26,116 bases of DNA from a virus: positions 1 through 26,116 of IMG/VR virus record IMGVR_UViG_3300025896_000174; one strand, 5' to 3'. Each line of letters starts with the position of its first letter. The first letter of the stretch is position 1. Under the pieces are notes generated by a model, which was given only the letters and a program-made list of their open reading frames with translations, had not been told where the DNA came from and searched no databases. Below are positions 1,211 to 17,821 of this stretch, one piece after another. A program made the position numbers and the translations under genes.

Positions 1211-1224
1211 ATGTCTCCCGACAT
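1211..1224 (-). promoter_or_regulatory. GGGA-loop hairpin carrying a Shine-Dalgarno
   Basis: On the minus-strand RNA this reads ATGTC-GGGA-GACAT, a perfect 5-bp stem closed by a GNRA-type tetraloop. The GGGAG is also the ribosome binding site of the gene starting at 1208 (6-nt spacing). It is one of five copies in the late operon. Confidence 0.6.
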
Positions 1225-1250
1225 TAAGATAGTGGGTGCGACTATTCGCT

Positions 1251-2645
1251 TTATTGCTGAGTATTTAAATAATTCTCTGCAAGCTTCTTTTGAGCTGGCG
1301 TTGCGTTAGGATTATTCAATATTGCTTGTGCATTAGCTGTACGTTTAGTGTGGTCAATACCTTGATCAGACTGATTTCTAGCCAATCCAACGCTACCTTC
1401 CTTGACGTCACCATTATTATCTAGACTCAAAGTTTTTCTAGTGGTGGCATTAACAGATACCTTCTTTTCGCTAGTAGTCATATTGCCATCTTTATCCATA
1501 GTTTCAGATGTATTTGTTAAATCAACATACTTATCATCCTTTTTCTCTTTAGGCATCGCTTCATGATGCAGCTTAAGAATTTGTTGCTGTAACTTTGGGT
1601 TACTATTTACAAAGTTAATTAAATTTTCTTGCGTTGCTATCCGTTTGGTTAATTGTTCTGGCGTAACACGTTGTACATTCTGATCGTATGGGCTAGATGA
1701 CCGATATTGTGTCATCGGATCACCATCGCGTACTTGTGGATTACCCTTAGCATCAGTACCAATAGATTTGATAGCGAAAGAGTAATAGCCGTCTGGATAA
1801 CCTGCTTCTGGTTGATGCTGGATCACATCAGATATTTCTTTAGAGGTTACAGTCGTACCATCTTCTTGCTTACCTAAGCCCTGATTAATATCAATTTTCT
1901 CAGTCACATTCAGTGCAGCAATGGCTTGTTGTTTATTCCCATGTGAAGGGTCCATGAGTGCGGTTTTTAAATTCTCTACATGCTGTGCAAAGGCAGGCAT
2001 GTTTCGTGCTATTTCAGGTAAATCAATTCCTGAAGATTTAAATTGATTGATTTGCTTAATGCCATCAGCACCATTCTTTAGATGAAATGATGGTGTACCA
2101 TCTTCATTAGTACCAATAGAATTACTCAGATCGATTAAATCTTCTTGTTTTTTCCTTTCCTTTTTAGCAGCCTCTAATACAAATGTCTTTTGTTCGATCT
2201 CCATCTTATTCGCTTCAGTTGTTCTTTTTTCTATGCTCTCCCTTAAGTTATCATCACGGACTTGTTTTTGTTGCTGATAGTCTAATGATTTATTCTGAAA
2301 ATCATCTTGGCTTTTTCTATCGTCTACTTTCAGCCCCAACTCTTTATTTCTAAAATTCATTTCAGCTTGCAGTCTATTAGTATCATTCAACTGAGATGCT
2401 TCATTATTAGACTTAGTGAGTGCTAAATGACTTGTATTATAAGCCGCATCATTAGTATTTTTTTGCCCTTGCAAACCCAACTCTTTATTTCTAAAATCCA
2501 TTGTTGCTAGATTATTAGCTTGATCCTGCTCTATTTTTTTATTCTCAATTTCGTTAGCGCGTCGTCTTTGCAGGGCTTGATCCACCATGCCGAAACCATT
2601 AACGAAACCATCTGCGAAACCTACACCACCTAAACCTGAACTCAT
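1251..2645 (-). CDS. Probable internal (ejection) virion protein, coiled-coil
   Basis: 464 residues. I recognise no enzymatic motif. The N-terminus is Gly-rich (MSSGLGGVGF), then residues ~20-170 are highly charged, Gln/Asn/Lys-rich and alpha-helical in character, with the phrase FRNKELGL at 51-58 and again at 98-105 and a weaker copy (FQNKSLDY) at 116-123. The copies are also nearly identical at DNA level, so they look like a recent internal duplication. The rest is hydrophilic. A large, low-complexity, coiled-coil protein between smaller virion proteins and an SLT-domain protein fits an ejection protein (T7 gp15 or P22 gp20 position). The start is supported by GGAGACAT upstream, a degenerate form of the repeated hairpin sequence. 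Confidence 0.6.
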   Translation of the reverse strand: MSSGLGGVGFADGFVNGFGMVDQALQRRRANEIENKKIEQDQANNLATMDFRNKELGLQGQKNTNDAAYNTSHLALTKSNNEASQLNDTNRLQAEMNFRNKELGLKVDDRKSQDDFQNKSLDYQQQKQVRDDNLRESIEKRTTEANKMEIEQKTFVLEAAKKERKKQEDLIDLSNSIGTNEDGTPSFHLKNGADGIKQINQFKSSGIDLPEIARNMPAFAQHVENLKTALMDPSHGNKQQAIAALNVTEKIDINQGLGKQEDGTTVTSKEISDVIQHQPEAGYPDGYYSFAIKSIGTDAKGNPQVRDGDPMTQYRSSSPYDQNVQRVTPEQLTKRIATQENLINFVNSNPKLQQQILKLHHEAMPKEKKDDKYVDLTNTSETMDKDGNMTTSEKKVSVNATTRKTLSLDNNGDVKEGSVGLARNQSDQGIDHTKRTANAQAILNNPNATPAQKKLAENYLNTQQ

Positions 2646-2667
2646 CGCTATGTCTCCGGATGATTAA

Positions 2668-3363
2668 TTAAAAACTGCTAAAGAGTTGATACAAACCACC
2701 GACCAGAAAGGCTGCTCCAGCTGCACCGCCTGCACCACCACTTGAGCCACCGGAGTTTTCACCAGAGCTACTTCCAGCAGAACTTGAGTTAGTGACATCG
2801 GCATTTAATGATTGAGTTGTTTCTGCAGTACCACCAGTATTACTACCTGCAGTAGAGGTGTTATAGCCACCACCTGTTGCATTATCATAAGCATTGCCAC
2901 CGGCATTACTACCTTCTACACTGCCAGTTGCATTAGAACCGGTTAAACCTTGAGCAGGCGCTGTGCTTTGAGTACCTGCATCGTTAAATGCTTTTCCTCC
3001 TGCATCGCTACCAACTACACCACCATTTCCACCTGCGCCACTAATTGATTGATCACCGGTACCTGATCTAAAGGCATCACTATTAGCAATAGCATTACCC
3101 GTAGCTGAGTTATTCATGCCCCCCGACTGACCCGCTAAACCTTTGGCTTCGCTCACCTGTTGATCATGCTTATACCCTGCATAAGCAATACCGAGATTGA
3201 CAGCAGATCCGGCTAAGGCACCATTACGGTTATTGTTGGCAACATCGTTTTGGTATTCTAAACTCGATTTCTGCGCTTGCCTTTTATTGGCCATGTCAGT
3301 CGATGTTTTGCTGGCATAATTAGCTTGCTCTAATTCACTTCTTCCGGTACCTAGTAGGCTCAT
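2668..3363 (-). CDS. Probable small internal virion protein, Gly/Ser/Ala-rich
   Basis: 231 residues. Residues 1-55 are polar and probably helical (EQANYASKTSTDMANKRQAQ), 50-66 are moderately hydrophobic, and 75-215 are a Gly/Ser/Asn/Thr/Ala low-complexity stretch with a loose repeat of the form GSxAGGxAxxxA. The C-terminus is hydrophobic (AAGAAFLVGGLYQLFSSF). This layout, with amphipathic ends around a flexible middle, and its place among the ejection genes suggest a T7 gp14- or P22 gp7-like pore component. That function is inferred from position and composition, not from a recognised domain. The AAGAGA sequence before the ATG is a weak ribosome binding site. Confidence 0.5.
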   Translation of the reverse strand: MSLLGTGRSELEQANYASKTSTDMANKRQAQKSSLEYQNDVANNNRNGALAGSAVNLGIAYAGYKHDQQVSEAKGLAGQSGGMNNSATGNAIANSDAFRSGTGDQSISGAGGNGGVVGSDAGGKAFNDAGTQSTAPAQGLTGSNATGSVEGSNAGGNAYDNATGGGYNTSTAGSNTGGTAETTQSLNADVTNSSSAGSSSGENSGGSSGGAGGAAGAAFLVGGLYQLFSSF

Positions 3364-3383
3364 AATAATGTCTCTTGTGCTGG

Positions 3384-3815
3384 TTACTTTTGACCTAATG
3401 ATTGCGCTGTATTACCCAGCCCACCACTGATCACCGCATTTTTACGATCAATATCCCACTGACGGGCAGAATTGGTAGCGTTATCCATAGACTGTGATTT
3501 GTTAATATCTACAGTGGTATCGAGGGCTTGCTGTTGCTGGGCATTATTGACGGTACCCATACGCGCCATATCTCTATTTTGCATATCAACAGCGCCACCA
3601 TAAGCGGTATTGACTGATTTCTGTGCGTTATCTAAACCTTCTTGATTAAATTTAGAATGGATACCGGTCCCCATATCTGCAATTAATTTATCTTCAACAG
3701 GGCGAAAGCGTTGCTTATAATCATTCCACTGCGTTCTGATTAATTTGGCTCGTTGTCCAGAAGCGACTTCATCGCGCTGTGCATATTGGTCAGGCATTTT
3801 TTGTTTATCGCCCAT
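3384..3815 (-). CDS. Small virion-associated protein with RxxWNxYKxxFxPxE motif
   Basis: 143 residues, hydrophilic and Gln/Asn/Asp-rich, with no transmembrane segment. Residues ~25-45 read RTQWNDYKQRFRPVEDKLI, which closely resembles REKWNNYKKKYIPIENQWM in the protein encoded just upstream. The two are therefore distant paralogues or share one domain. Both lie between the tail genes and the ejection proteins, so a structural or ejection role is likely. I cannot name the family. Upstream AGGA supports the ATG at 3815. Confidence 0.5.
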   Translation of the reverse strand: MGDKQKMPDQYAQRDEVASGQRAKLIRTQWNDYKQRFRPVEDKLIADMGTGIHSKFNQEGLDNAQKSVNTAYGGAVDMQNRDMARMGTVNNAQQQQALDTTVDINKSQSMDNATNSARQWDIDRKNAVISGGLGNTAQSLGQK

Positions 3816-3824
3816 GATAGTGTC

Positions 3825-4430
3825 CTATTTGTTCGGCTTGGTTAGGTAGTTAGAGGCACCAGCAGCGCCCATGCCGGCAAAGGTGCCATAACCATTGAGT
3901 TCACTTTGTCTAGCATCAAATTTATTCTGACTGTTCTTAATTTGTGCATCGACTGAGCTATTAGCAACATCCGCTAACCCTTCAACCGCATCGGCTGATT
4001 TGCCTTGACCCATGCTAATCACACCTTCAGTGCCTTTCAGATAGCGATCTGTAACCCCTAACTCAGCCTTATTACGCGCTTGTGAAATGGTATTCGCTTG
4101 CTCTTGATATTTAGCCATGCCAGTGCGATGCCCTATGGCTGAATCAGCAAGACCTTGCGTTTGTGAACCGTATTGGGTTTTGGCTTCATTCGACACCATC
4201 GAGGCGGCTTGATTATGATAAAGCGGGTTATCTAATTGACTGACCGACTTCATCCACTGGTTTTCAATGGGAATATACTTTTTCTTGTAGTTATTCCATT
4301 TCTCTCTAGCAACAGAAGCTAATTGACGCTCTTCTTGATTAACAGAGGGAACAAGCGCGCCACCTTCTTGCTTTCCACCATAAAAAGTATGTGGCAAGAT
4401 CAAACAAAGCCAGTGTTTATAAAACTTCAT
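3825..4430 (-). CDS. Virion-associated protein, paralogue of its downstream neighbour
   Basis: 201 residues. It starts with a short hydrophobic segment (WLCLILPHTF, residues 7-16) that could be a membrane contact or a mis-called start. AAGGA sits 8 nt before the ATG at 4430 and supports this start. From residue ~42 it carries the W-N-x-Y-K-x-x-(F/Y)-x-P-x-E motif shared with the next gene, then a polar helical region rich in Gln, Ala and Ser, and a Gly/Ala-rich C-terminus. Likely an ejection or tail-end protein. Function is inferred from position only. Confidence 0.5.
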   Translation of the reverse strand: MKFYKHWLCLILPHTFYGGKQEGGALVPSVNQEERQLASVAREKWNNYKKKYIPIENQWMKSVSQLDNPLYHNQAASMVSNEAKTQYGSQTQGLADSAIGHRTGMAKYQEQANTISQARNKAELGVTDRYLKGTEGVISMGQGKSADAVEGLADVANSSVDAQIKNSQNKFDARQSELNGYGTFAGMGAAGASNYLTKPNK

Positions 4431-4442
4431 TTTTGAGTCCTT

Positions 4443-4456
4443 CTGTCTCCCGACAG
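4443..4456 (-). promoter_or_regulatory. GGGA-loop hairpin (repeat copy)
   Basis: Minus-strand RNA CTGTC-GGGA-GACAG, a perfect 5-bp stem with a GNRA-type loop, in the gap between two genes. Here the nearest start codon (4430) has its own AAGGA, so the hairpin's GGGAG is about 18 nt from the ATG and probably not the main ribosome site. Confidence 0.55.
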
Positions 4457-4469
4457 TAAGTGTGGAGCG

Positions 4470-4904
4470 TTAAGGCAAGTAGGGACAGATATTATCGACA
4501 GGTAAAGTATAAGTCGTCAGTGACGGCCAGTCATGTCGTTTGGCAAGGTGTTTAAAGCCCTCGCGGGGTGAGATAAAAATAATAGAAGTGGCGTAAATAT
4601 CTTTGGCTACCTCGTTGATTGCATAGCGATAATCAGCAAAATCTTCGGTTGATTCACTATACCATATCCAGATAAACAATTCTTTGGCAAGTGTGTACTG
4701 ATTTTCCTGCGGATTACAGATAATAAAGACTTCATCGAGGGTAAAGCAAAAGGATTGACCACTTAGGCATTGGGCATAAACATCTTCAGGTCGCCAGGGG
4801 AAATTACGTTCCTGTTGCAGTTTAGCCACCTTGGGTTGAATCTTATCCCAGACCAAGCGAATGTCTTGTAGGACAAAGCGTTTATCTAAGGTGCTATCGG
4901 CCAT
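4470..4904 (-). CDS. Small phage protein of uncertain fold, possibly GNAT-like
   Basis: 144 residues, soluble. The stretch LDEVFIICNPQENQYTLAKELFIWIWYSES followed later by ATSIIFISPREGFKHLAKRHDW has the shape of a short GNAT-like acetyltransferase fold: beta strands, an ability-to-report segment, then 'S-x-R-x-G-(F/W)' before a helix. Phages often encode such a protein near the tail-fibre chaperone. The acetyl-CoA loop (Q/RxxGxG/A) is not evident, so catalytic activity is doubtful. Its start overlaps the end of the upstream chaperone gene by 19 nt, which points to coupled translation. Confidence 0.45.
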   Translation of the reverse strand: MADSTLDKRFVLQDIRLVWDKIQPKVAKLQQERNFPWRPEDVYAQCLSGQSFCFTLDEVFIICNPQENQYTLAKELFIWIWYSESTEDFADYRYAINEVAKDIYATSIIFISPREGFKHLAKRHDWPSLTTYTLPVDNICPYLP

Positions 4905-5353
4905 ATCACGTCCAATGGGTAAGTAGGTTGCAGGGTAATATCGCGTAGTTCTTGCCGGTAATCTTGCCAGGCTTGATAAAGCCCATCGCCTAGTCTGGTT
5001 TGTGCAGAGACGGTATCGGTCCAGTCAGATGCTTGGAGTAATTGTAATCGGTTAGATAGTAGTGACTCTGTTTGTTGCTCTATTTTACCAGCATACAGCT
5101 CAGGAGAATATTCCCATTGTTCTGTGAGGGTATTAAATACTGATACATCATCAGGCTGAGTAGGTTTTAATAAGACTTCATCAGTACGTCTATTAAAATA
5201 ATAATTGTGATAGTTCTGACCTGTGAAAACATCTTTGTATGTTTCATAATCTAATACTTTGAAATCCTCATTTGTCGCTAACTCAATGCCACTAGCAATT
5301 GTTACATGAGTAATAATACCCAAGCTATCTAAATAAATTCCAGCATTTATCAT
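4886..5353 (-). CDS. Tail fibre assembly chaperone-like protein
   Basis: 155 residues. The C-terminal half reads RLQLLQASDWTDTVSAQTRLGD... then YRQELRDITLQPTYPLDVIWPI. This is the hallmark of phage tail assembly chaperones (the xSDWT...YRQxLRD...P..V.WP pattern of the Phage_tail_APC family). The N-terminal half is a beta-rich segment seen in fibre chaperones. Such proteins help trimerise the tail fibre and are usually encoded directly after it. That is the case here: its start overlaps the stop of the fibre gene (ATGA-type, 5350-5353). Confidence in family is good; the target fibre is inferred from adjacency. Confidence 0.75.
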   Translation of the reverse strand: MINAGIYLDSLGIITHVTIASGIELATNEDFKVLDYETYKDVFTGQNYHNYYFNRRTDEVLLKPTQPDDVSVFNTLTEQWEYSPELYAGKIEQQTESLLSNRLQLLQASDWTDTVSAQTRLGDGLYQAWQDYRQELRDITLQPTYPLDVIWPIAP

Positions 5354-7017
5354 TTCCCAACCTCTAATACATTGAATATAAAGTTTGATAGAGTTGCTCC
5401 TGATGTTGTTGTAGATATAGTTATAGCAACTGATGTTGTATAAGAAGTTGTATATATATTTATTACAGGCATTTGAAGAGTATAGCCTCCTGGATTAAAT
5501 ATAGAGGTTGTCACAGCTACTCCATTTATATTTAAAATAACAGTTCTTGAAATTGTGGCTAAGACACCGCATGAAGCCGTTATAAATAACGTAGTAGGAT
5601 CAGTCGCTGTGCCATGAGTAGTATAACTAACTGAAGCAGTTGCAGATCCTGGATAATATTGATTCCAGCTTACTGCATTTGCTTTTATATTCAATCCACC
5701 AACGACATTACCATTTAGTGTCATGGTAGCGCCATCGTAACTAATATTTCCAGTTGTATTTCCTAAAGCAAACGTACCATCACTGTTAATGATGCCGCCT
5801 TGACCTGTCATAGTGCTTCCACTAACGACAGCTGTGCCTGCTTTTAAACTAGCGGCTTTTACAGATCCTGTTACTAAAAGATTACCATCAAGTATTTGTC
5901 CTTGTGCAGACCATGTACCCGGATTGCCAACTGTGACCACGTACTTAGTTAATACCCATGTGGGACTAGCGAGGCTTGGGTAAACTTCAGTGACATAATC
6001 ACCGATACGCAATACACCACCTGCACCAGGCATTGCAGTGATCGCGGTATAGGCGACTGAATCTGACCATGCTTGTGTCGTTACGGCAGCGGCTGTATTG
6101 AAATTACCTCTCACACCGGCATTGGAAAAGGATAATGACTGTTGCTTAGTCACTGTTATGGCGGTGCCATCTTTGAGTGTGGCAATAATAGTAAATATAA
6201 TCTTGGCAGGATCTGTGGTCATTGCACTCGAATCACCATAGGTCAGTGTCGTTGTGCCTGTGCCTGTGACTGCGCCTGGGGTAATACCGGTTCCTGCTGC
6301 GGTGACTCTAAACGTACTATTAGCATAAGGAAGACTGGAATCTTCCGTTAGCGCTGTTGCCCCTTGCCAGACATTAATATTGGTACCTGATCCGGTATAT
6401 GTGACAACATTGGCTGCTGAGTTTGGCAGCGTATGTGCCTCATTACTGAGCATAACAGTAATGCCATTTGAGCCTTCTTTTAGACCAAACAAGGTCATCA
6501 TGTCACGGGCTTCAATAGGACCACTGATACTGCCCTCACGTATCTGTACTTCTAGCTTATCGGGCATCGAATCAAATGATGCTTTAGGTGTATAGGTATA
6601 GGTATTAGTGGTTGTTGCTATACCGGTACTGACATCATTAATAAAAAATTCGTAATAAATGACACCTGTTGTGTTGAAAGCGGTTGCTGTCATTACTGAA
6701 GTAGCGGGTGCTGGCACTAAGCCTAGACTATTGTAAGCAAAACTTTGGTTAGGTGTAGTGAGAGTAACAGAACGCGCATTGATACCTGCAGCGCCATCAG
6801 CACCTATTGCGCTTTCTAGTGTCGCTTGAATTAATGACTCATTGAATGTTTGTAAATTAGCATCAAGCGCAGGCTGTATCCATTGCGTCATATTAGCTAA
6901 ATTTTCTGCATTTAGATTAATATTAGTGATGGCGGCATTGAGTGACTCACGCACAGCCGATAAAACATTGCGTAATTTTGGCTCTAGTCCTGCCGGTACA
7001 CTAGGTACTTCTCTCAT
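5350..7017 (-). CDS. Tail fibre / receptor-binding protein
   Basis: 555 residues. Residues ~1-75 are helical (virion-anchoring in style), followed by a collagen-like GADGAAGINA turn and then Thr/Ser/Gly-rich beta modules. Around residues 370-440 it contains ILDGNLLVTGSVKAASL and INSDGTFALGNTTGNISYDG, the pattern seen at the end of lambda J-like and other fibre proteins ('...G.LLvTGsV.a..l...'). The C-terminal ~120 residues form a separate beta-rich tip that probably contacts the host receptor. The gene overlaps the tail gene upstream by 4 nt and is followed by a fibre chaperone. Likely role: host recognition at the virion surface. Confidence 0.7.
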   Translation of the reverse strand: MREVPSVPAGLEPKLRNVLSAVRESLNAAITNINLNAENLANMTQWIQPALDANLQTFNESLIQATLESAIGADGAAGINARSVTLTTPNQSFAYNSLGLVPAPATSVMTATAFNTTGVIYYEFFINDVSTGIATTTNTYTYTPKASFDSMPDKLEVQIREGSISGPIEARDMMTLFGLKEGSNGITVMLSNEAHTLPNSAANVVTYTGSGTNINVWQGATALTEDSSLPYANSTFRVTAAGTGITPGAVTGTGTTTLTYGDSSAMTTDPAKIIFTIIATLKDGTAITVTKQQSLSFSNAGVRGNFNTAAAVTTQAWSDSVAYTAITAMPGAGGVLRIGDYVTEVYPSLASPTWVLTKYVVTVGNPGTWSAQGQILDGNLLVTGSVKAASLKAGTAVVSGSTMTGQGGIINSDGTFALGNTTGNISYDGATMTLNGNVVGGLNIKANAVSWNQYYPGSATASVSYTTHGTATDPTTLFITASCGVLATISRTVILNINGVAVTTSIFNPGGYTLQMPVINIYTTSYTTSVAITISTTTSGATLSNFIFNVLEVGK

Positions 7018-10000: not shown

Positions 10001-10076
10001 TTGCCATATTATCTCTAAGCAAATGGTCGCTGACTTTCGGTGCTTTACCGGAAAACTGATCGATTTTAATCGCCAT
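7014..10076 (-). CDS. Large podovirus tail protein (tail tube/stabilisation type) with two inserted modules
   Basis: 1020 residues. The N-terminus (IDQFSGKAPKVSDHLL, then ATNLRIDSGAITALKG) and the segment TYVYTYVTPLGEEGPPSPP at ~623-641 are typical of a conserved podovirus tail protein in the place of T7 gp12 or P22 gp10, which forms the nozzle or distal tube. Between residue ~130 and ~612 lie two successive units. Each has a short FVxxxxYTI...W(N)xIAG...FT...GTGTA motif (169-222 and 389-436) and then a jelly-roll-like, lectin-style beta domain (~240-375 and ~465-600). Without these the protein would be about 540 residues. C-terminal ~380 residues resume a beta-propeller-like pattern (NGFIVGYSGNSLCVSE, VLFSSPDGLCSV). 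Name is inferred; the insertion is directly visible. Confidence 0.7.
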   Translation of the reverse strand: MAIKIDQFSGKAPKVSDHLLRDNMATVATNLRIDSGAITALKGVTQTDTTTSTDRSIYRYRIPISPFYQWLGWTTQNVNVIRSPVPNDRYNRIYITGNGEPKYLYYDTVADAPSSEYLLGVPQPRSIEKLTESGISTGSLIGGKAFTPGAMTITGVSADVTAGATAGPGSFVIGRFYTIDVATGTTNTQWNTIAGTTLTPQTYISGSTFTCANIGTGLGTGTAHSSRGISRTAVGADWTSGGYSDISYPFNCVLRFSISVMNASAAIGLNIDQNTTTQPGKIDWAVQGDSNGSYKILNNGIPVTFGSIAANKYTSTDVFEIEYIDKTISVSLNGNIVYSKKTVAGGLTYFMAASLQGTAGGSGTFSQITDIEFGQYVITALTATTTAGSFVVNNKYTIVTLGTGTDWNAIAGTSGVTYTIGSPFTALSAGSGTGTASTANVFKAGEMILSSNTNNVTIDKNSVSKTKGAVGWNAQATSSESFVGPCITRFQFGSLTSPAAAGLNTPPLTAVGMNTLDFAFVTTTAGHVGIYENGVVKGADYGAFTAADVFQIECTAAGSIVYSKGPTVLYTSATTGNLTKNFFFDCSMNKIDASITGIQLGTNLTNSDVLIAATADLTEKDRTYVYTYVTPLGEEGPPSPPTSKITVNDLQTVILTFPAITTEITPNDGNGTAYSAPYNIANGLRRIYRTATGTTSTEFLHVGDCSVNNLTFEDNLLDVALTEPLPSLNWFPPPLDMKSVTSTPNGFIVGYSGNSLCVSEAMFPHAFNPFNQLGFTGNVTGIASSGDSLVVFTDEAPYLVTGSTPGTLTAIRIDHQQTCANKASIVNMGGYVLFSSPDGLCSVTANDMAIETQNYLTRDQWQAYSPSTMRGYLYEGVYIGFSDTKQFMFDRRQDPAVLTDISGFTVSSGFNDLVEDKLYVLDNTGHISTWETGSNQTYIWKSKLAREATAVCPAALRLYATGDVIFKLYADGTLVFTTTVTNSSVVRLPGGYRAKEFQIEVSGSGVLQSFAIANSVGELQ

Positions 10077-10078
10077 GA

Positions 10079-10750
10079 TTAAGCCTGTGGTGCTTTAGTA
10101 GGATTACTTACTGAAGTGTCTGCGTTAGTTTTTGCAGTTAAGGCGCTGACAAATAACTGATAATGTTCTTGGCCACGCGCTACTTGAGACGAGTTATCGA
10201 AGTCTTTGCTAAAGGCTCGATACAACACATAGTCTAATAGCTCGGTTTGAAAGTAGTCTGGGATGGTAATCTTAGTGCCGACATTAGCATTAGCGATCAA
10301 TGCCGGTAGTGCTGAATACACACACTCCACATATTTAGCTATAGCCGGCTGTGGTGGATAGACATAGAATATTAAGGGATCTGTTGCTGTATAAACATAA
10401 TGTTTAACAATGCCATTAACCATTGTAGTGGTCCAACCTGGGATACGTTTGAGCATAATCTCTTTAGGCACATGAGTAATCACTGCACCGACTGTTGTGC
10501 CTGCTGAACCTAAGTTATGCGGTATATCCAGCAACAAGATACCATCGCTGGGCAGAGATTGTTTAACCCCTGCTACCAACTGCACTGCACTATTTTTAAC
10601 ATTAGCTTGGGGTAAGACGGTTGCAATATCACGCTGACCGTCATTGAGCCAACCTAGTAGTTCAGAGACTAACCAAAAGGATTGAGAGACATCAGCCAAT
10701 AGTAATGAGGCCTTATCAATAATGGTTTTAGCATCGGTAGTAGAGGCCAT
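10079..10750 (-). CDS. Phage adaptor-type protein, copy B of a tandem pair
   Basis: 223 residues. It opens MASTTDAKTIIDKASLLLADVSQSFWLVSELLGWLNDGQ, almost the same pattern as the gene just upstream, and keeps further shared blocks (LVAGVKQSLPSDG, NLGSAGTTVGAVI, FYVYPPQP, ELLDYVLYRAFSKD). Proteins with this 'WLNDGQ...YP..P...YVLYRA' pattern act as adaptor or head-to-tail connector components under the portal ring. The pair probably arose by tandem duplication followed by divergence. The ATG has AGGAACACTC upstream and the stop is 2 nt from the tail gene start. Confidence 0.65.
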   Translation of the reverse strand: MASTTDAKTIIDKASLLLADVSQSFWLVSELLGWLNDGQRDIATVLPQANVKNSAVQLVAGVKQSLPSDGILLLDIPHNLGSAGTTVGAVITHVPKEIMLKRIPGWTTTMVNGIVKHYVYTATDPLIFYVYPPQPAIAKYVECVYSALPALIANANVGTKITIPDYFQTELLDYVLYRAFSKDFDNSSQVARGQEHYQLFVSALTAKTNADTSVSNPTKAPQA

Positions 10751-10759
10751 GAGTGTTCC

Positions 10760-11461
10760 TTATTGTGGTGGATTAGCTTGTTGAGATTGCTCACCCGTAT
10801 GTAAATAACCACTATTCTCAGATTTCTCAATGGTGTATTTAATACCAATCGCTTGAGAGAACATTTTGTAATGGATCTGGCTACGATCTGATTGATTGCC
10901 GTATTCAGAATCTTTACCGAAGGCACGATAAAGAACGTAATCTAATAGTGCATTAGCGTAAATATCCCTAACCGTAATCACCGGTGTTCCTGAAGAGGGA
11001 ATAACCGCAGGCACTTGTGAGTAGACAATTTCAATACTGGACATACCTGATGCAGGCTGTGGCGGGTAGACGTAAAAATCGACATTACTGTCAGCAGGAT
11101 CATAAGCAATGTGACTGACGACAATGGATGTTGCTGCACTGGGCCAGCCCACTATAAATGAATTTAAGAAGTTACGAGTGACTTGACGTATGACACCGCC
11201 TGGCGTTGTCCCGCCCACACCCATGTTACGAATAAAGCCATTAACATACAGTGCATCAGTGGGTGCTGATTGTTTGGTCCCAGCGACTAGAGCAACAGTA
11301 GAGGTAGCAGGATTAGCATTAGGCACTAAGGCACAGATTTCAGATTGCCCGTCATTCAACCAACTGAGTAGTTCAGACGGTAGCCAACGAGTTTGTGAGG
11401 CATCAGCCAAAAATACTGAAGCCTTGTCGGTGATTGTTTTAGCAAGCGTAGTAGAGGCCAT
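10760..11461 (-). CDS. Phage adaptor-type protein, copy A of a tandem pair
   Basis: 233 residues. Its first 40 residues (MASTTLAKTITDKASVFLAD then WLPSELLSWLNDGQ) match copy B, and shared blocks continue to DYVLYRAFGKDSEYGNQSDRSQ near the C-terminus. It has a distinct Gln/Ser-rich tail (HTGEQSQQANPPQ). Likely a ring component in the neck, between portal and tail tube. The two copies could form a hetero-ring or two stacked rings; that is inference. AGGAC precedes the ATG, and the gene starts within the region just after the third adaptor gene. Confidence 0.65.
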   Translation of the reverse strand: MASTTLAKTITDKASVFLADASQTRWLPSELLSWLNDGQSEICALVPNANPATSTVALVAGTKQSAPTDALYVNGFIRNMGVGGTTPGGVIRQVTRNFLNSFIVGWPSAATSIVVSHIAYDPADSNVDFYVYPPQPASGMSSIEIVYSQVPAVIPSSGTPVITVRDIYANALLDYVLYRAFGKDSEYGNQSDRSQIHYKMFSQAIGIKYTIEKSENSGYLHTGEQSQQANPPQ

Positions 11462-11469
11462 GAGTAGTC

Positions 11470-12102
11470 CTAGTTGAATGGATTGCGATATAAAGTAGAT
11501 TGTTCTGAGGCGGCTCGGTTAACCGTGTCATATAACGCATTACGTTTGTGACCAAAGGCTTTATCAAACTGACCTGAATACATAATGGCTTTATTAACGT
11601 CCGTCATACCATTGTTATTGATGGAGAAGAAACGAAATAGGCACCAGTTGCTTAAGTCATCATGGTACTGACTGGGTGTTTCCATTGACACAATAGGCCG
11701 ACGTGAGCCGTCCAGTTGCATCGTGTAAGATTTATCAGGCATCGGATACAGCGTGAGCTTGGTATCATCCTGAAAGTAGTAGTTGGGGGTAGCGACTTCG
11801 GTAATCCATTTATTGATATTAAAATCCAACTCGCGTCGAGTGGTCTTTATGAGCGGCTTGCTCTCGCCACTCAACCGAACTGAATCTATAAAAATAACAC
11901 TAGGATTTATGGCATAGACCGATACACCTGAAGTGACGGCTATATCGTAAGTGCTATCAATTCTAAGGTATTGAGCGCGTTCAGCGGCTTCTGTCTCAGC
12001 TTCACTAATAAAGCCGGCCAATACGGTATCTGGTACAACATAAGGTTCTACATCATCCCCCGAGTATCGTCTGATTAACGCGATGAGCGCACTCTGTTTC
12101 AT
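11470..12102 (-). CDS. Head-tail adaptor protein (SU10-adaptor-like)
   Basis: 210 residues. The N-terminus MKQSALIALIRRYSGDDVEPYVVPDTVLAGFISEAETEAAERAQYL follows the common pattern of podoviral adaptors ('iRrYsgDd...l..fineAe.eAa.Ra..l'). The centre has beta strands with TTRRELDF and KLTLYPMPDKSYTMQLDGSR, and the C-terminus is helical. Such proteins join the portal dodecamer to the tail. It follows a small head gene without any gap (stop and start are adjacent) and precedes the two paralogous adaptors. Family call is from pattern memory, not a search. Confidence 0.65.
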   Translation of the reverse strand: MKQSALIALIRRYSGDDVEPYVVPDTVLAGFISEAETEAAERAQYLRIDSTYDIAVTSGVSVYAINPSVIFIDSVRLSGESKPLIKTTRRELDFNINKWITEVATPNYYFQDDTKLTLYPMPDKSYTMQLDGSRRPIVSMETPSQYHDDLSNWCLFRFFSINNNGMTDVNKAIMYSGQFDKAFGHKRNALYDTVNRAASEQSTLYRNPFN

Positions 12103-12486
12103 TTAGATGGCCATTGCGCTGTAAGGATACGCAGGGACTTCACGTTTCACAATCGACTTAGTGACTTCATCTTGGACATAAATGTCTTTAACCGCATGTT
12201 CAAGCACTTCCACTAGAAATGCCGGTACGATCACTTCCATACCGCGTTTAACTAACCACGTCTTACCATTAACCGAGATAGGCACATCAATAGAGCCGGT
12301 GTCGCCTTCGGTTTTGTGGATCATGAGTTTAACTTTTTTATCAGCAACAACCGGCACAGTATTACTTGCATCGCGGATTTGCTTCTTTATAGAATCTATA
12401 CTGAAGCGAGCATTAGCATCAACTCCGAGTGATTTAGCATGGTCTATCAATTCTTCTTTGTTATCTGATGTTTCAAAATCAAGCAT
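12103..12486 (-). CDS. Small head-associated protein downstream of the capsid gene
   Basis: 127 residues. Residues 1-45 look like a small helical SAP/HeH-type module (NKEELIDHAKSLGVDANARFSIDSIKKQI). From ~52 there is a beta-rich domain: KVKLMIHKTEGDTGSIDVPISVNGKTWLVKRGMEVIVPAFLVEVLEHAV. This type of protein is common right after N4-gp56-type capsid genes and may be a head or connector decoration, but its role is not established to my knowledge. GGAAAG lies before the ATG and the gene follows the capsid terminator. Confidence 0.55.
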   Translation of the reverse strand: MLDFETSDNKEELIDHAKSLGVDANARFSIDSIKKQIRDASNTVPVVADKKVKLMIHKTEGDTGSIDVPISVNGKTWLVKRGMEVIVPAFLVEVLEHAVKDIYVQDEVTKSIVKREVPAYPYSAMAI

Positions 12487-12503
12487 GAGCTTTCCTTCTT
12501 AAG

Positions 12504-12535
12504 TAAAAAAAAGGGTACCTATTGCTAAGTACCCT
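12504..12535 (-). terminator. Rho-independent terminator after the capsid gene
   Basis: On the minus strand AGGGTAC and GTACCCT (12512-12518 with 12529-12535) form a 7-bp stem with a 10-nt loop followed by eight U residues. It sits 15 nt after the capsid stop, as often seen after phage capsid genes, and would lower expression of the connector and tail genes. Confidence 0.85.
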
Positions 12536-12549
12536 CATTTGTTTAACGA

Positions 12550-13554
12550 CTAAAGATTAGTCGCGCCTACTTCAATACGAGCAATCCAATTTTCATTAAG
12601 AATTTTGGCAGCAAAGTAAGTTTTCCAACCTACAAAGCCAACTTGTCCTAATGGATCAGATTTAGAAGGTGTACCAGGGTTCAATACACTTGGAGTGATT
12701 GAGTTAGCACCTTTTAATGGCACAAGACCATAGGCTTCTTTAGCAACGAATATCAGCGGATAAACATCGATGTTAGTGGCATTGTCAGCAATCAAACCAG
12801 TTGAGGCAACCACTGCACCAGCCGCTTGAAATGGCGCCATCAATGGCGTCAAGATAAAGCGAATAGATTCAACAGAACCTAATTCTTCTGGACATAATGG
12901 TTGACGTGAACCGTAAGAAGCAACAGGAGTAAACCCTGCTAATGCACGAATATCGGCTTCCAAATCAGTATGACCGAAAGCAATATAACCACCTTCAATC
13001 GCTTTTGTTGCATAGCCAGGTGAAGATGACAACATTGAAGTAACTGGTTTGCCGCGATTAGCACGCAAGGCTCTAACAACCGCGCGAACACGATCAAGAG
13101 TGATCTTGCTGTTGACAGATACACGAGTTGTGTGAGCGATAGTGTCATAGAATACGTTAGTACCCGCTTTGATAGCACCGTACGTAATCATTTCAACCGT
13201 TTCAGCGGCTTGTTCACCGGCCATCATCGCTGCATCTTTCAATACAGGATCTTCAGCCAAGTCATCTACTTTGTCAGTGATAGCAATAACCGCACCGTAC
13301 TGAGCAATTTGCACAGTCACATCTTCATACGTCATTTGTTGAGTAGTCGGTGTTACACCTTCAGACAACGCAGTAGTAGAGATAGCGAAAGGGACAGGAC
13401 GACGAAATTTAACAGTGTCGGCTTTGTTAGATGGAAGTGGTTTGGACTGACCGAATTTAGATAAAACTAAAATAGGTTCAGCGTGAGATAACATCTCGGT
13501 TGCAGCCCAAGCTGCCGTTCTTTGACTAATGGTGCCATAAAGAGTATTGGCCAT
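12550..13554 (-). CDS. Major capsid protein, N4-gp56 family
   Basis: 334 residues. The start MANTLYGTISQRTAAWAATEMLSHAEPILVL, the segment GQSKPLPSNKADTVKFRRPVPF, and LSEGVTPTTQQMTYEDVTVQIAQYGAVIAITDKVDDL are the signature of the N4-gp56 major capsid family (HK97 fold: N-arm, E-loop, spine helix). The spine-helix candidate is KDAAMMAGEQAAETVEMITY. C-terminal residues (VGFVGWKTYFAAKILNENWIARIEVGA) are also family-typical. AGGAATT gives a good ribosome site 7 nt before the ATG. A scaffold gene lies upstream and a strong terminator directly downstream, consistent with high, separate expression. Confidence 0.92.
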   Translation of the reverse strand: MANTLYGTISQRTAAWAATEMLSHAEPILVLSKFGQSKPLPSNKADTVKFRRPVPFAISTTALSEGVTPTTQQMTYEDVTVQIAQYGAVIAITDKVDDLAEDPVLKDAAMMAGEQAAETVEMITYGAIKAGTNVFYDTIAHTTRVSVNSKITLDRVRAVVRALRANRGKPVTSMLSSSPGYATKAIEGGYIAFGHTDLEADIRALAGFTPVASYGSRQPLCPEELGSVESIRFILTPLMAPFQAAGAVVASTGLIADNATNIDVYPLIFVAKEAYGLVPLKGANSITPSVLNPGTPSKSDPLGQVGFVGWKTYFAAKILNENWIARIEVGATNL

Positions 13555-13737
13555 AAATAATTCCTAATAGTAAAATAATTGAAAACAACGGTTTGTTTTC
13601 CAAAATCTATACAAGGGATTATTATTTGACCGGCCAACACTGCTAGCGGGTTACAAAACCATCATACTGTTTGGTGTTTCCTGTTAAGGAACGATAAGAC
13701 TCTGCCTATCGCTTTGCTCCTGTCTCCCGACAGTGCC
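13555..13737 (-). promoter_or_regulatory. Gene-free leader before the capsid gene, three hairpins
   Basis: 183 nt without a credible gene. On the RNA it holds the 13720-13733 GGGA hairpin, a stem AGCGATA/TATCGTT, a stem TTCCT/AGGAA (loop 4), and a perfect 8-bp stem GAAAACAA/TTGTTTTC (13581-13600, loop 4) about 27 nt before the capsid ATG. This may be a processing or stabilising leader, or hide a capsid promoter; no strong -35/-10 pair is seen. Confidence 0.45.
13720..13733 (-). promoter_or_regulatory. GGGA-loop hairpin (repeat copy, not at a start codon)
   Basis: Minus-strand RNA CTGTC-GGGA-GACAG, perfect stem, placed 4 nt after the scaffold stop codon and 166 nt before the next start. This copy cannot serve as a ribosome binding site, so the element has another reason to be conserved. 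Confidence 0.55.
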
Positions 13738-14511
13738 TTACTTCTTTTTGTTAGCGTAGTATTCCCACGCTGAACTAAAGTCATCGGGTGCCGATGATGA
13801 TTTACTGACACCCTTACTCTGTACTGCCACATTGCCGGCTAACTTTGTTTGCCTTCGTTGCGCCAATTCATTTGATTTGTTCTTGGTACCTTGAAATGAG
13901 CCGATCAGATATTGATAATCACGGGCGTCATAACTACTAGACATTGCCTGTATTGCTGAGGGTTGCTCAGTCAACCAGTTTTTATACTCATTACCAGCAA
14001 CAATGTCTCGCCAGTCCGGTATGTTCGAGTCGATAATATTGATTTGGCTATCGATGTAGCGCTGCTCATCTTGACGATCATTTTGTTGCTGTATCGGTGC
14101 TAGACGTTGGTCCAAGTCACCATACTTACGCTCAAAGTAATCGATCATGGGCTTTACGATTTCAGGATAGTCCTCCATCGCAACCGCTAGATCATCATCA
14201 AACTTTTTTGCTGGTGGGCTTTCGCTATCTAGTTTCTTTTGCAGTGCGCTAACACGGCCTACTTGAGACTTGAAGCTATGCTCAAAATCATCCCGTTCTT
14301 TACGCAGGACTTCGAGTTGTTGCTTGAGTGCTTGAGTGTCGTCTACTGAATCTTCGATAACGTCATCAGCACTTGCGTACTCACTATCATCATCAACTGA
14401 CTCTTTAACGATCTCCTCAATTACTTTTGCATCATCTTCAGCAAAACCATTAAATAATTCTTCAAAATCTTCATCATCACGGCTGTAATCAGCGGTGTTA
14501 TTATCTGACAT
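13738..14511 (-). CDS. Capsid scaffolding protein
   Basis: 257 residues. Residues 1-60 are strongly acidic (Asp/Glu-rich), ~60-95 form a likely coiled coil (TQALKQQLEVLRKERDDFEHSF, QVGRVSALQKKLDSE), 105-140 are helical (AMEDYPEIVKPMIDYFERKYGDLDQRL), and the C-terminus is basic (YYANKKK). An acidic, helical protein with a basic C-terminal clamp directly upstream of the capsid gene is the classic podovirus scaffold arrangement: it guides procapsid assembly and then leaves. A hairpin with GGGAG provides the ribosome site 9 nt before the ATG. Confidence 0.8.
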   Translation of the reverse strand: MSDNNTADYSRDDEDFEELFNGFAEDDAKVIEEIVKESVDDDSEYASADDVIEDSVDDTQALKQQLEVLRKERDDFEHSFKSQVGRVSALQKKLDSESPPAKKFDDDLAVAMEDYPEIVKPMIDYFERKYGDLDQRLAPIQQQNDRQDEQRYIDSQINIIDSNIPDWRDIVAGNEYKNWLTEQPSAIQAMSSSYDARDYQYLIGSFQGTKNKSNELAQRRQTKLAGNVAVQSKGVSKSSSAPDDFSSAWEYYANKKK

Positions 14512-14516
14512 GGTGC

Positions 14517-14530
14517 GTGTCTCCCGACAG
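14517..14530 (-). promoter_or_regulatory. GGGA-loop hairpin carrying a Shine-Dalgarno
   Basis: Minus-strand RNA C-TGTC-GGGA-GACA-C: a 4-bp stem (outer C/C mismatch) with the GGGA loop, 9 nt before the scaffold ATG at 14511. Confidence 0.5.
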
Positions 14531-14541
14531 GCTGGTGTTAC

Positions 14542-14748
14542 TTAACTGTATTCGTTACTGGTGAGTAATGAAACAGGTTGTTTGTTTGACAATGACTTTA
14601 AGTCAGTCAGTGCCGATACTATTCCTCGATGATACATTGTTAGATTAAAATCCAGTGTGACGGATGACAGCTTGCGGCTTGATGCGGCCAGTTGTTCATC
14701 GATGAAACTTTCAATCTCTAACCAAGTATCTGATGTAATATCTATCAT
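14542..14748 (-). CDS. Small conserved-type phage protein next to portal/scaffold
   Basis: 68 residues: an acidic/helical N-terminus (MIDITSDTWLEIESFIDEQL) and a helix with RGIVSALTDLKSL. Many podovirus genomes have a ~70-residue helical protein of this style ('W..l..wi...i...r..L.......a...RG.i.aL..Ll') in the head gene cluster. Function unknown. The ribosome site is weak (AAGACTT), and a GAAA-loop hairpin lies ~30 nt upstream of the start. Confidence 0.55.
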   Translation of the reverse strand: MIDITSDTWLEIESFIDEQLAASSRKLSSVTLDFNLTMYHRGIVSALTDLKSLSNKQPVSLLTSNEYS

Positions 14749-14778
14749 AAGTCTTGAATTATGTGCGGGTTAATGTTA

Positions 14779-14805
14779 CCACATATTGCATTTCTGCAAT
14801 AGTGG
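14779..14805 (-). promoter_or_regulatory. Intercistronic GAAA-tetraloop hairpin
   Basis: On the minus-strand RNA CCAC-TATTGCA-GAAA-TGCAATA-(U)-GTGG: an 11-bp stem with one bulged base and a GAAA loop, in the gap between the methyltransferase-like gene and the 68-residue gene. There is no U-run, so it is more likely an RNA processing, stabilising or translation-control hairpin than a terminator. Confidence 0.6.
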
Positions 14806-14847
14806 CATATTTCTAGCGGGTTTTATTCCATCTGCTGTGTCTCAAAA

Positions 14848-15435
14848 TCAAATAATTCTCAATTCAGTGCTATTAAATGAGCTATCTTTTTTCCATACAC
14901 AGTGCATATATTCGATTGAATCAGTGCCACCAGTATTTAAAAATCTCATCCTTTCAGAATGAACATAACAACACATTGGTAAATTATGCGTCCAGAATGG
15001 TTTTCTACCTTTTGAACCAAAAAAGTTTAATCTTAATAACATCACTACATAACCACCACTAGCAATATCAGTTAATGCTTTGTTGATAATCTCTAATGCA
15101 AGATTAAATAGCGGGTTTGTAATAATACAATCAGGCTTGACTGGCATCATTGCTTGCAACTCAGCAGTCATGTAATTATTTCCAGAATGATTTGCTAATG
15201 AATCTGGCCTTAAATCAAGAGTTTCAATATTGCTATACCCATTACTCATCAACGCAGTCGGATAACTCATTGGGTTTATGCTATCTCCTCCTGCACATGG
15301 GTCCAGCAATATATTTCCAAGTGACCCGTAATCTTTATGAAAATTAACAATAAAATCATTAATATTTTTTACAGGTGTGACATAGTAATCAGCGACATGT
15401 GAATCACGTGCTGATGAACGGTTAGTTGAACTCAT
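14848..15435 (-). CDS. DNA methyltransferase-like protein
   Basis: 195 residues. Residues 43-51 (LLDPCAGGD) match SAM-binding motif I, Asp73 (TLDLRPD) fits the acidic motif II position, and 104-110 (IITNPLF) is in the place of motif IV of amino-methyltransferases, where (D/N)PP(Y/F) is usual. The second Pro is replaced by Leu, so target and activity are uncertain. YVTP (18-21) resembles the N-terminal substrate-contact segment of phage N6-adenine methyltransferases. The ATG overlaps the portal stop as TAATG, so it is translationally coupled to the portal. A modification gene inside the head operon is unusual. It could protect DNA as it is packaged; that is speculation. Confidence 0.65.
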   Translation of the reverse strand: MSSTNRSSARDSHVADYYVTPVKNINDFIVNFHKDYGSLGNILLDPCAGGDSINPMSYPTALMSNGYSNIETLDLRPDSLANHSGNNYMTAELQAMMPVKPDCIITNPLFNLALEIINKALTDIASGGYVVMLLRLNFFGSKGRKPFWTHNLPMCCYVHSERMRFLNTGGTDSIEYMHCVWKKDSSFNSTELRII

Positions 15436-17684
15436 TACAGACCAGCCTCTATTTGCTGAGTCTCAATACCCTGATTCATGCCCTGAGCAGCTGACTGTGG
15501 ATCGACTTGCTGTGGTTGATTAGGGTCTTGTGGCATCCCATCATTAGGTAGAGCGGGCGAGCCTGGACTGGTGTTTTGCTGAATCATCTGATCTTGTTGC
15601 ATATCCGGTGCTTGTTGCTCCATACCTTTCGGTACTTGTGTACTGGGAGTGCCGTTAGCATCTTTGTACCCTGCACTCTTCATCAACTCATCACCGACTG
15701 GTACGATCTGAGGCATCTGCACAATAGATCCTGCTGTCTGCATTGCACTGAATTGCGTCTTAACATTAATGTCCGCTGTTTCAGCAGTGAGCTTATCAAT
15801 CTTACCCTGCAACTCTTGTACTTGCAGTTGCATCATGACTGCTTGCTGTTCCATCATCGCTTGTTGCATGGGGTCCGGTTTATTCTTTTCTGCTTCCAGT
15901 TCATCATTGGTTTTAACAATGTCATCTGGATTAAGATGTTGTGCTTGTATAGCTTTACGATACAACTCTGGATGTTTAGTTAGGTCGGTATAGATAGGTT
16001 GCAAGGATACCGACATTAGATTCAGCAGCGCTTGTGTCTGTGTTTCTTTAACAAGCAATGCTGAAGAGCCTCTAGCATCAATCTCAAAGTCACCTTTGAT
16101 CTCTTCTATATCACTGTTCTGCATATTCCAATCATACATCCTGCCGATGAAAGGCTTAGTGATACCATCATCAAAGGCTTTAACGACATTACGCAACACA
16201 GTATTCGCGGCATTAAGCAACATACTACGGCCAGCTGCCGTATCTTGAGCGCCTCCTACTTCACCTTGAGCTAACATGGGAAGTGACGTTACTTCACTGG
16301 CCATGTTCTTAGCTGTCTCAAAGATGGCAGATAACTCTGCTTGATGTGATGCGATTTCATGACTACCGAAAGCATCATCAACCCGATGCTCTGGATCTGT
16401 AAGCCACCAGACCTTACGGGCTTTCAAATCCCAGCTACCATCTGACGGTGTCACTAACTCTCTATTGATGATTAACTGTGGTCCAGTCGATAAGGCAGCA
16501 TTGTCTAACAACATACGCCAAGCGGCATTAACGATACGTTGCTCGTTACGCAACAGATAGGGAATACCAAAGCCAAAGACACTGGTATCATCATCTTCAT
16601 AAGCAAATACCGAGTAAGGACATTCACCGGTTTCCAGTGGATTAAGATCAGCCTTGATCACTACACCATTAATAAAACTAACGATAACGTCATGTTCAAT
16701 CAGGTCATCATCTTCAACAGCACAACCACAGGACTCTAAATCTTCTTTAGTCGCAGGACCGTGATATTCCCATAACTCATAGCGGTTATCATTGATGTTA
16801 GCTTGCACACCGGATAATTCTCTTAGCCTACCAACATGACTAGAGCCGTTCGAGTTATTACGTGCATCAACAGCAATAATCTTTTTGATTTGATCTTTTA
16901 GGTAGCCTGGACGTTTAGATAGTTCGATCAACTGCTTCTTGGTGACATAACGTCGCTCAAAGATAAAGCCACATTCGGTAATCTTGGTTGCTGACATATC
17001 AGGGAACCAGTCCCATACATTGACACGTTCAACACCTGGCCGATACTCTTGAACAATATCTAACTCATAGACAGCATTGTCTAACTGCTTCCAGTTCTTA
17101 CGACTACGATTGATAACCACTGGACCTTTTAATATACCCGTACCAAACAAGCAAGCATCATGGATAACCTCTCTTGCAATGGTGTGGTACTTAGCCTCAA
17201 CAAGTTGATCATCAATCTCCCGTGTCATAGCTTCAGCACGTTGCTGTGCTTCTTTCAGCATCTCTTTAGCCATATCAGCATGAGTGACTTCATTGCCCTG
17301 CTCGTCTTGACCAGCGACTTCCTGATTGTTAGCCATTTTCTGAATCTCTGGCACCGGAGTCGGTTGTATCGCCCAGTTGGTGTCATCAGAAGGAAACAGC
17401 ATATCTGCTAATCTGGATTCAGCACCGGTAGACTTAGACCGTGTAATGTTGACAAAGGCTTGACTACCCGCTGATTTCTTGAGTCGCTCAAGCGTTTCAG
17501 CATCATAATGACCCATGTATTGCTCAAGATCAGACAGCCATCTGTCCTCAGTCTGCTGACGAATACCAATCTGTTCTTGTGCTAATCGAGTTAAACGCCA
17601 ACCGAGTGCCTGTATTTGCTCACCCGATTCTTCATCATCGTTATCATCGAGTTCATACTCGTCGTTCTGTTGTATTGTTTGCAT
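15435..17684 (-). CDS. Portal protein (podovirus type)
   Basis: 749 residues. The segments LTRLAQEQIGIRQQTEDRWLSDLEQYMG (~30-57), GSQAFVNITRSKSTGAESRLADMLFPSDDTNWAI, and HDACLFGTGILKGPVVI are typical of large podoviral portal proteins that form the dodecameric packaging vertex. Downstream, PYSVFAYEDDDTSVFGFGIPYLLRNEQRIVNAAWRMLLDNAAL marks the stem/wing region. The last ~150 residues are Gln/Pro/Met-rich (QQAMMEQQAVMMQLQVQ) with coiled-coil then disordered character, likely the barrel and tail. It follows TerL. Ribosome site GGGAG lies inside a hairpin 6 nt before the ATG, and three direct repeats lie farther upstream. Confidence 0.88.
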   Translation of the reverse strand: MQTIQQNDEYELDDNDDEESGEQIQALGWRLTRLAQEQIGIRQQTEDRWLSDLEQYMGHYDAETLERLKKSAGSQAFVNITRSKSTGAESRLADMLFPSDDTNWAIQPTPVPEIQKMANNQEVAGQDEQGNEVTHADMAKEMLKEAQQRAEAMTREIDDQLVEAKYHTIAREVIHDACLFGTGILKGPVVINRSRKNWKQLDNAVYELDIVQEYRPGVERVNVWDWFPDMSATKITECGFIFERRYVTKKQLIELSKRPGYLKDQIKKIIAVDARNNSNGSSHVGRLRELSGVQANINDNRYELWEYHGPATKEDLESCGCAVEDDDLIEHDVIVSFINGVVIKADLNPLETGECPYSVFAYEDDDTSVFGFGIPYLLRNEQRIVNAAWRMLLDNAALSTGPQLIINRELVTPSDGSWDLKARKVWWLTDPEHRVDDAFGSHEIASHQAELSAIFETAKNMASEVTSLPMLAQGEVGGAQDTAAGRSMLLNAANTVLRNVVKAFDDGITKPFIGRMYDWNMQNSDIEEIKGDFEIDARGSSALLVKETQTQALLNLMSVSLQPIYTDLTKHPELYRKAIQAQHLNPDDIVKTNDELEAEKNKPDPMQQAMMEQQAVMMQLQVQELQGKIDKLTAETADINVKTQFSAMQTAGSIVQMPQIVPVGDELMKSAGYKDANGTPSTQVPKGMEQQAPDMQQDQMIQQNTSPGSPALPNDGMPQDPNQPQQVDPQSAAQGMNQGIETQQIEAGL

Positions 17685-17686
17685 GT

Positions 17687-17700
17687 ATGTCTCCCGACAT
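17687..17700 (-). promoter_or_regulatory. GGGA-loop hairpin carrying a Shine-Dalgarno
   Basis: Minus-strand RNA ATGTC-GGGA-GACAT, perfect 5-bp stem. GGGAG is 6 nt before the portal ATG at 17684. Confidence 0.6.
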
Positions 17701-17724
17701 TCGTTAAAATATAAATTATTTAAT

Positions 17725-17820
17725 TAATGCCTATACCCATTAAAACCTAGAAAAGACGTGGCTTTAAGCTAATACCTATACCCATTAAAATGATAATACC
17801 TATAATATCTATACCCATTA
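17725..17820 (-). repeat. Three direct repeats of CCTATACCCATTA upstream of the portal gene
   Basis: Copies: 17725-17745 and 17770-17790 (20 of 21 bases identical), and a third (17794-17820) in which the unit is interrupted by extra TA-rich bases. CTATACCC cores start at 17731, 17776 and 17809. The stretch is gene-free and A+T-rich. On the minus strand each core reads TAATGGGTATAG. They may bind a regulator or be late-promoter elements. Confidence 0.75.
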
Positions 17821-17821
17821 C

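Follow-up and report, generated by a model that had tools for sequence, protein, structure and literature searches.

A late operon of virus origin carries the same small RNA hairpin at five of its cistron boundaries, and related hairpins recur across many phages as an RNA-level structure on the sense strand of late genes, at cistron boundaries, with preferred loops and a rule that links loop to spacing. The operon runs leftward (- strand) in a fragment of 26,116 bases, IMG/VR virus record IMGVR_UViG_3300025896_000174, which is referred to here in its full length as the window. The element, TGTC-GGGA-GACA, occurs exactly five times in it, with the 12-base core identical in all copies, always on the - strand, the one that encodes the late genes, and always in a non-coding gap between cistrons (Table 1). 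The repeats are an RNA-level element, neither a product of chance nor a DNA repeat; in relatives the stem sequence changes while the pairing stays. They are members of a family of small hairpins in the late-gene RNA of phages, and what was seen is larger than was described in a first-pass annotation made from the letters of the window.

When up to two mismatches were allowed, five copies were found compared with 0.28 expected, and none of 100 shuffled sequences reached five. No sixth copy was present anywhere in the record, and a reversed-pattern control gave no match. The positions, the intercistronic location and the single orientation reported in the first-pass annotation were exact. So were the perfect 5-base-pair (bp) stems of four copies, ATGTC/GACAT at 1211 and 17687 and CTGTC/GACAG at 4443 and 13720. 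Copy 4 has a stem of 4 bp, TGTC/GACA, followed by a C.C mismatch and then by two further pairs, GC/GC. The distance from a copy to the preceding stop codon is small in four of five cases, approximately 3 to 26 nucleotides (nt). Since the loops of copies 1, 4, and 5 are located 7, 10, and 7 nt before the ATG of the genes starting at 1208, 14511, and 17684, GGAG serves as the Shine-Dalgarno sequence (SD) in these copies, as had been proposed. No U-run follows any of the five copies on the 3' side, and they thus do not have the form of intrinsic terminators.

Pairing, loop type, and spacing in related phages

Relatives were defined by their capsid protein, which yielded at least 80 IMG/VR contigs plus prophages of Halomonas, Litchfieldella, Chromohalobacter, Kushneria, Neptunomonas, Azospirillum, Novosphingobium, and Sphingopyxis. 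In their homologous gaps, stems with other sequences were found. The portal gap of relative L025 contains TTGCC-GGGA-GGCAA, the scaffold gap contains AGTC-GGGA-GACT in L026 and GTTC-GGGA-GAAC in L042, L047, L052, L060, and others, and the gap before the homologue of the gene starting at 4430 contains TCGTC-GTGAT-GACGA in L023. Homologues of copy 3 in the capsid gap show a GTGA loop in L021 and L025, a U-G wobble in L007-L009, and an 8-bp stem in L026. The compensated stems in L025, L026, and L023 bear out the selection on structure that had been suspected from the window. Retention of GGGAG with loss of the stem in relatives, the outcome that would have spoken against such selection, was looked for and did not occur. 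Genes following the hairpins encode capsid, scaffold, portal, endolysin, terminase, and tail proteins.

Both sides of the stem had changed in five of six pairs, and covariation amounted to 0.841 compared with 0.183 in shuffles, with the alignment rows behind the former value partly picked by pairing. Stems of at least 4 bp at 4-21 nt before starts were found in 9.0% of the GGGA contexts and 8.1% of the GTGA contexts versus 0.55% for all loops (121 loci). Since these searches and the covariation count select for pairing, an unselected test was added. Frames of the type GCC-N9..18-CGC were taken from leaders of the scaffold gene, the open frame that precedes the capsid gene, and the inside of the GCC-CGC frame was ignored. 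Pairing of at least 4 bp was detected in 43 of 74 scaffold-leader frames, which comprised 24 different inner sequences, compared with about 0.7% of 16.6 thousand background frames. The P value of 8e-69 is inflated by kinship of the rows, whereas the contrast itself is not. Many scaffold leaders in which a GNGA loop is absent retain this frame around a different loop, which often carries the SD (e.g., GATC-CAAGGA-GATC). Thus, what is conserved at the scaffold gene is a hairpin in which two outer pairs lie beyond a C.C mismatch. This form extends beyond the scaffold gene: in L127 and L131, its model also matches leaders that belong to other genes.

The commonest loop form in the clade was GTGA or GGGA, closed by C-G. 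Intergenic sense and antisense counts were 36 and 2 for cGTGAg, 23 and 3 for cGGGAg, and 13 and 1 for tGTGAa, with the next combination at 5. In thinned relatives, different stems per loop numbered 21 for GTGA, 9 each for GGGA and GAAA, and 8 for GCGA (mean, 2.2). Loop specificity is clear for GTGA and moderate for GGGA, GAAA, and GCGA. A generic stable tetraloop was rejected: UUCG and GCAA were not raised, and GAAA and GCGA were mildly raised after thinning.

Loop type was linked to the distance from the start. Among near relatives, GGGA loops were located 6-12 nt from the start in 31 of 33 cases, versus 8 of 32 for GTGA, GCGA, and GAGA loops (P = 6e-9). The latter were mostly located farther from the start, with a separate SD. 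The proposal that the hairpin presents the SD was therefore upheld in part: three window copies and the use of GGGA at SD distance agree with it, but GTGA copies and copies away from starts do not. Because there are copies without that role, the hairpin is not merely an SD display; the SD is taken up where position allows.

Spread across phages and hosts

CTGTC-GTGA-GACAG and CTGTC-GGGA-GACAG were searched for in all viral contigs, giving at least 123 and at least 114 matches, respectively, versus 91 for a reversed control. Among the matches listed, 62 of 123 (GTGA) and 61 of 114 (GGGA) were intergenic, compared with 7 of 91 (8%) in the control, and a start was present within 25 nt in 23 and 25 cases, compared with 2. 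The genes downstream of the listed matches encode P22-type and phrog_1357-type capsids, scaffolds, portals, major tail protein, and ejection protein. Many of the matching phages are otherwise unrelated to the window and have unrelated capsid proteins. Randomly reached viral contigs, used as background, showed little such excess.

A host element was considered and rejected. TGTCGKGAGACA occurred 11 times in seven host genomes (approximately 32 Mb), about half of these inside the prophages. Hairpins were absent from the stretches read of several capsid relatives (those from Azospirillum and Sphingopyxis, contigs G003, G005, and G020, and phages Y3, StenR_269, and Rollin), and no recurrent C-GKGA-G hairpins before starts were found in T7, Y3, StenR_269, Rollin, PAE2, P26218, DSL-LC04, and DSL-LC05. 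A nucleotide search of the window against deposited known phages revealed no near relative, and Rfam covariance models gave no meaningful match in the window or in seven relatives. An earlier description of the hairpin was found neither in the open-access literature nor in Rfam, a survey that leaves subscription papers mostly outside its coverage. Literature on GNRA, GUGA, and CUUCGG hairpins in phage late genes and on scaffold autoregulation was relevant only for T4, 7-11, and cluster K.

Genes and further elements of the late operon

The late operon encodes, among others, terminase, portal, a methyltransferase fragment, a probable scaffold, and a major capsid protein of the phrog_1357 type, together with three paralogous structural proteins, an internal virion protein of approximately 1000 residues, and a tail fibre assembly gene. 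The genes beside the hairpins are listed in Table 1. The large protein encoded at 1..1208 had no match in PHROGs or Pfam.

Table 1. Hairpin copies and adjacent genes in the window
Feature	Coordinates	Strand	Remarks
Copy 1, ATGTC-GGGA-GACAT	1211..1224	-	Loop 7 nt upstream of ATG at 1208
Copy 2, CTGTC-GGGA-GACAG	4443..4456	-	Loop 17 nt upstream of ATG at 4430; separate SD AAGGA between
Copy 3, CTGTC-GGGA-GACAG	13720..13733	-	Directly 3' of scaffold stop codon; >160 nt from capsid start 13554
Copy 4 with extension	14513..14535 (core 14517-14530)	-	Loop 10 nt upstream of scaffold ATG 14511
Copy 5, ATGTC-GGGA-GACAT	17687..17700	-	Loop 7 nt upstream of portal ATG 17684
Large protein gene (start), copy 1 upstream	1..1208	-	402-residue open frame to the end of the window
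Gene of unknown function, copy 2 upstream	3825..4430	-	phrog_611
Major capsid protein gene, 3' of copy 3	12550..13554	-	phrog_1357
Probable scaffolding protein gene, copy 4 upstream	13738..14511	-	Between portal and capsid genes; weak matches to phrogs of unknown function; assignment inferred
Portal protein gene, copy 5 upstream	15435..17684	-	phrog_332, phrog_1216, SU10_portal

Several further structures were observed near the hairpins. Apart from copy 3, the long capsid-gene leader (13555-13740, - strand) contains another hairpin, with a stem that varies from relative to relative. It also contains a conserved block, GAYGGTTTTG ... GCCGC ... CAAA ... TCCCTYGTA, for which a long-range fold is predicted and in which compensatory changes are few. 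The same leader is present in L006, L014, L016, L021, L022, L025, L026, and L028 and has no Rfam match. Before the scaffold gene, tandem hairpins were seen in G002 (approximately 25293-25313, - strand), L042, L052, L060, L063, and L070: a GTGA- or GCGA-capped stem is followed by a GNGA hairpin with the C.C mismatch. In the Halomonas-type group, a second hairpin of the GCC-paired-CGC type (e.g., GCCGCTGGATAACCAGCCGC) lies inside the first scaffold codons in L108, where this gene is located about 1 kb upstream of the capsid gene, and also in L037, L043, and L060. The gap between terminase and portal (approximately 17705-17845, - strand) holds repeats of approximately AATGGGTATAGGTATTA; L012, L013, and L024 have them too, and other close relatives do not.

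Between the portal and scaffold genes, a frame of 195 residues (14848-15435, - strand) matches a phage DNA methyltransferase profile at 198-367 of 458 only and is truncated or split. The gap between this fragment and a 68-residue frame contains a 7-bp hairpin, TATTGCA-GAAA-TGCAATA (14780-14810, - strand), which is also present in G001. Downstream of the capsid gene, three tandem genes (10079-12102, - strand) all match the phrog_399 structural protein family, a threefold duplication.

Possible functions and comparison with known systems

The hairpin probably helps to control the translation of late genes or the lifetime of their messages. We give about even chances to the specific proposal that it is a cis-acting element of late mRNA at cistron boundaries, which shapes the ribosome-binding region and the boundary. 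The element consists of a 4-5 bp stem, closed by C-G, and a GNRA-type loop (mostly GUGA or GGGA), placed at cistron boundaries and usually just 5' of a translation start. By analogy with other intercistronic phage hairpins, it may shape and insulate the ribosome-binding region and may stabilise the 5' or 3' boundary of the cistron mRNA, and highly needed virion genes could then be started independently of the upstream gene. The predicted strength of the hairpin at SD sites is weak (about -5 to -7 kcal/mol). There the ribosome would have to open it, so that these starts would be tunable; a putative loop-binding factor may take part. Three observations weigh against this proposal. GTGA and GGGA are favoured over other stable loops (UUCG and GCAA), a preference that points to recognition and not to passive stability. 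The hairpins are missing altogether from several relatives within the capsid family, and the function would therefore be dispensable or replaceable. Finally, when folding was compared with shuffles, the copies at 1211 and 14517 were no better than many shuffles, and stability was modest.

Alternatively, a trans-acting protein, from the phage or its host, could recognise the GKGA loop and repress or time late translation, as the MS2 coat protein and T4 gp43 do at their operators; such a protein is a less probable but serious candidate. It would explain why the preference for GTGA and GGGA does not extend to the stable loops UUCG and GCAA, although GAAA and GCGA were also mildly raised after thinning. 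A fixed structure with a free stem sequence and an SD overlapped by the loop at many starts are also consistent with binding. So is the scaffold-gene form, whose conserved C.C mismatch and two outer pairs resemble protein-recognised hairpins. However, copy 3 is too distant from the next start for a simple repressor, and few copies are present in host genomes. The single phage-wide operator protein envisaged in the first-pass annotation was not supported, since the hairpins occur in phages of unrelated capsid families. In addition, a comparison of gene content between hairpin-rich and hairpin-poor relatives, several of them partial contigs, revealed no RNA-binding-like gene that tracks with the hairpin. 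A CI-type repressor and a DUF968/HNH protein were the only genes common to five hairpin-rich and absent from all hairpin-poor genomes, and neither was convincing. CsrA was rejected as the loop reader: it was found in one relative only, G003, which is itself without hairpins. The CsrA homologue of G003 (contig of L034; 28413-28574, - strand, locus L091) scored above the Pfam cut-off (E = 5e-16). Similarly tentative is the idea that many Proteobacteria phages, otherwise unrelated, share C-GKGA-G hairpins as a recognition code by which a factor would control their late virion mRNAs; the SD would be fused into the loop where position allows, and a special C.C form would occur at the scaffold gene.

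Cleavage of the late polycistronic mRNA between cistrons, by a RegB-like or other endoribonuclease, appears unlikely. RNase III would require a much longer stem, and a cut would destroy the SD of the portal and scaffold genes. The intercistronic position would suit a cleavage site, including that of copy 3 right after a stop codon, and C-G[GGA]G fits the minimal RegB substrate, with GGA unpaired and the fourth G constrained (PMC3014915). However, GTGA loops lack GGAG, late T4 transcripts are spared by RegB, and structure is usually protective (PMC3014915). No RegB gene turned up in the proteins scanned, among which no specific RegB search was made. A role as DNA, either as a hairpin promoter of an N4-type virion RNA polymerase or as short homology for module exchange, is very improbable. 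A large protein of one relative weakly matches the profiles of DarB and of the virion RNA polymerase, an enzyme that is also annotated in StenR_269, but the genes of StenR_269 are not preceded by such hairpins. Moreover, copies at or over start codons would give leaderless messages, and the stems diverge with compensation, unlike homology. That the five window copies are nearly identical could point to chance repeats or to a recently spread DNA repeat without function; this can hardly be credited, since number, strand, place, compensation, and the loop-spacing rule are all far from chance.

From the single long transcript of a phage late operon, capsid, scaffold, portal, and tail proteins must be made in widely differing amounts. 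Except in a few models, little is known of how DNA phages set such ratios post-transcriptionally. The presence of a small, recognisable element before the virion genes of many environmental phages, together with a clear loop-spacing rule, makes this question accessible to simple reporters. The hairpin can also aid the annotation of virion genes in metagenomic phages, including their true starts. Should a protein read the loop, the two would constitute a new RNA-protein pair that could be useful as a tool.

Among known systems, the CsrA/RsmA sites present GGA in a hairpin loop overlapping the SD, usually in an ANGGAN hexaloop. The hairpins described here have a C-GGGA-G or C-GTGA-G tetraloop instead of an ANGGA loop, and their GUGA variants lack GGA. 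The MS2 coat operator is a small hairpin at or upstream of a start with conserved loop bases and structure. The same applies to the T4 gp43 operator (PMC3014915). In both cases there is one site per phage with a known protein, whereas here there are many sites. T4 RegB sites, in which GGAG is cut between GG and AG, share with the GGGA copies the GGAG at the SD; in contrast to RegB sites, the hairpins belong to late genes and include GUGA variants, and GGAG is absent from their GTGA copies.

The SAS of cluster K mycobacteriophages, GGGATAGGAGCCC, is an SD-bearing start-associated repeat found at many genes per phage, with unexplained function (PMC3203893); among start repeats that carry the SD, it is the best precedent. 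Like the hairpins, it is a short SD-bearing repeat located a few nt before starts in one orientation, with GGG/CCC outer symmetry; an SD before the start is present in three of five window copies and 31 of 33 GGGA copies in relatives. SAS, however, is a fixed 13-nt sequence described as non-palindromic and located in non-structural genes, whereas the hairpins vary in sequence with pairing kept, carry a tetraloop, and belong to virion genes.

The CUUCGG hairpins of T4 are short, very stable tetraloop structures, mostly intergenic, recurrent within a genome, and common in phages, and the 5' leader of one T4 gene is stabilised by such a hairpin (Tuerk et al. 1988, as related in PMC8948821). The hairpins of the window and its relatives differ in loop, which is GGGA in the window and GUGA or GGGA in relatives rather than a C-G-closed UUCG. 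Their stems are 4-5 bp long, the loop often contains the SD, and UUCG hairpins show no notable excess in the phages of this study. Like the T4 hairpins, they are predominantly intergenic and recurrent in one genome, and most likely they are cis-acting late-mRNA elements of a similar kind, in which the SD is embedded if its position permits.

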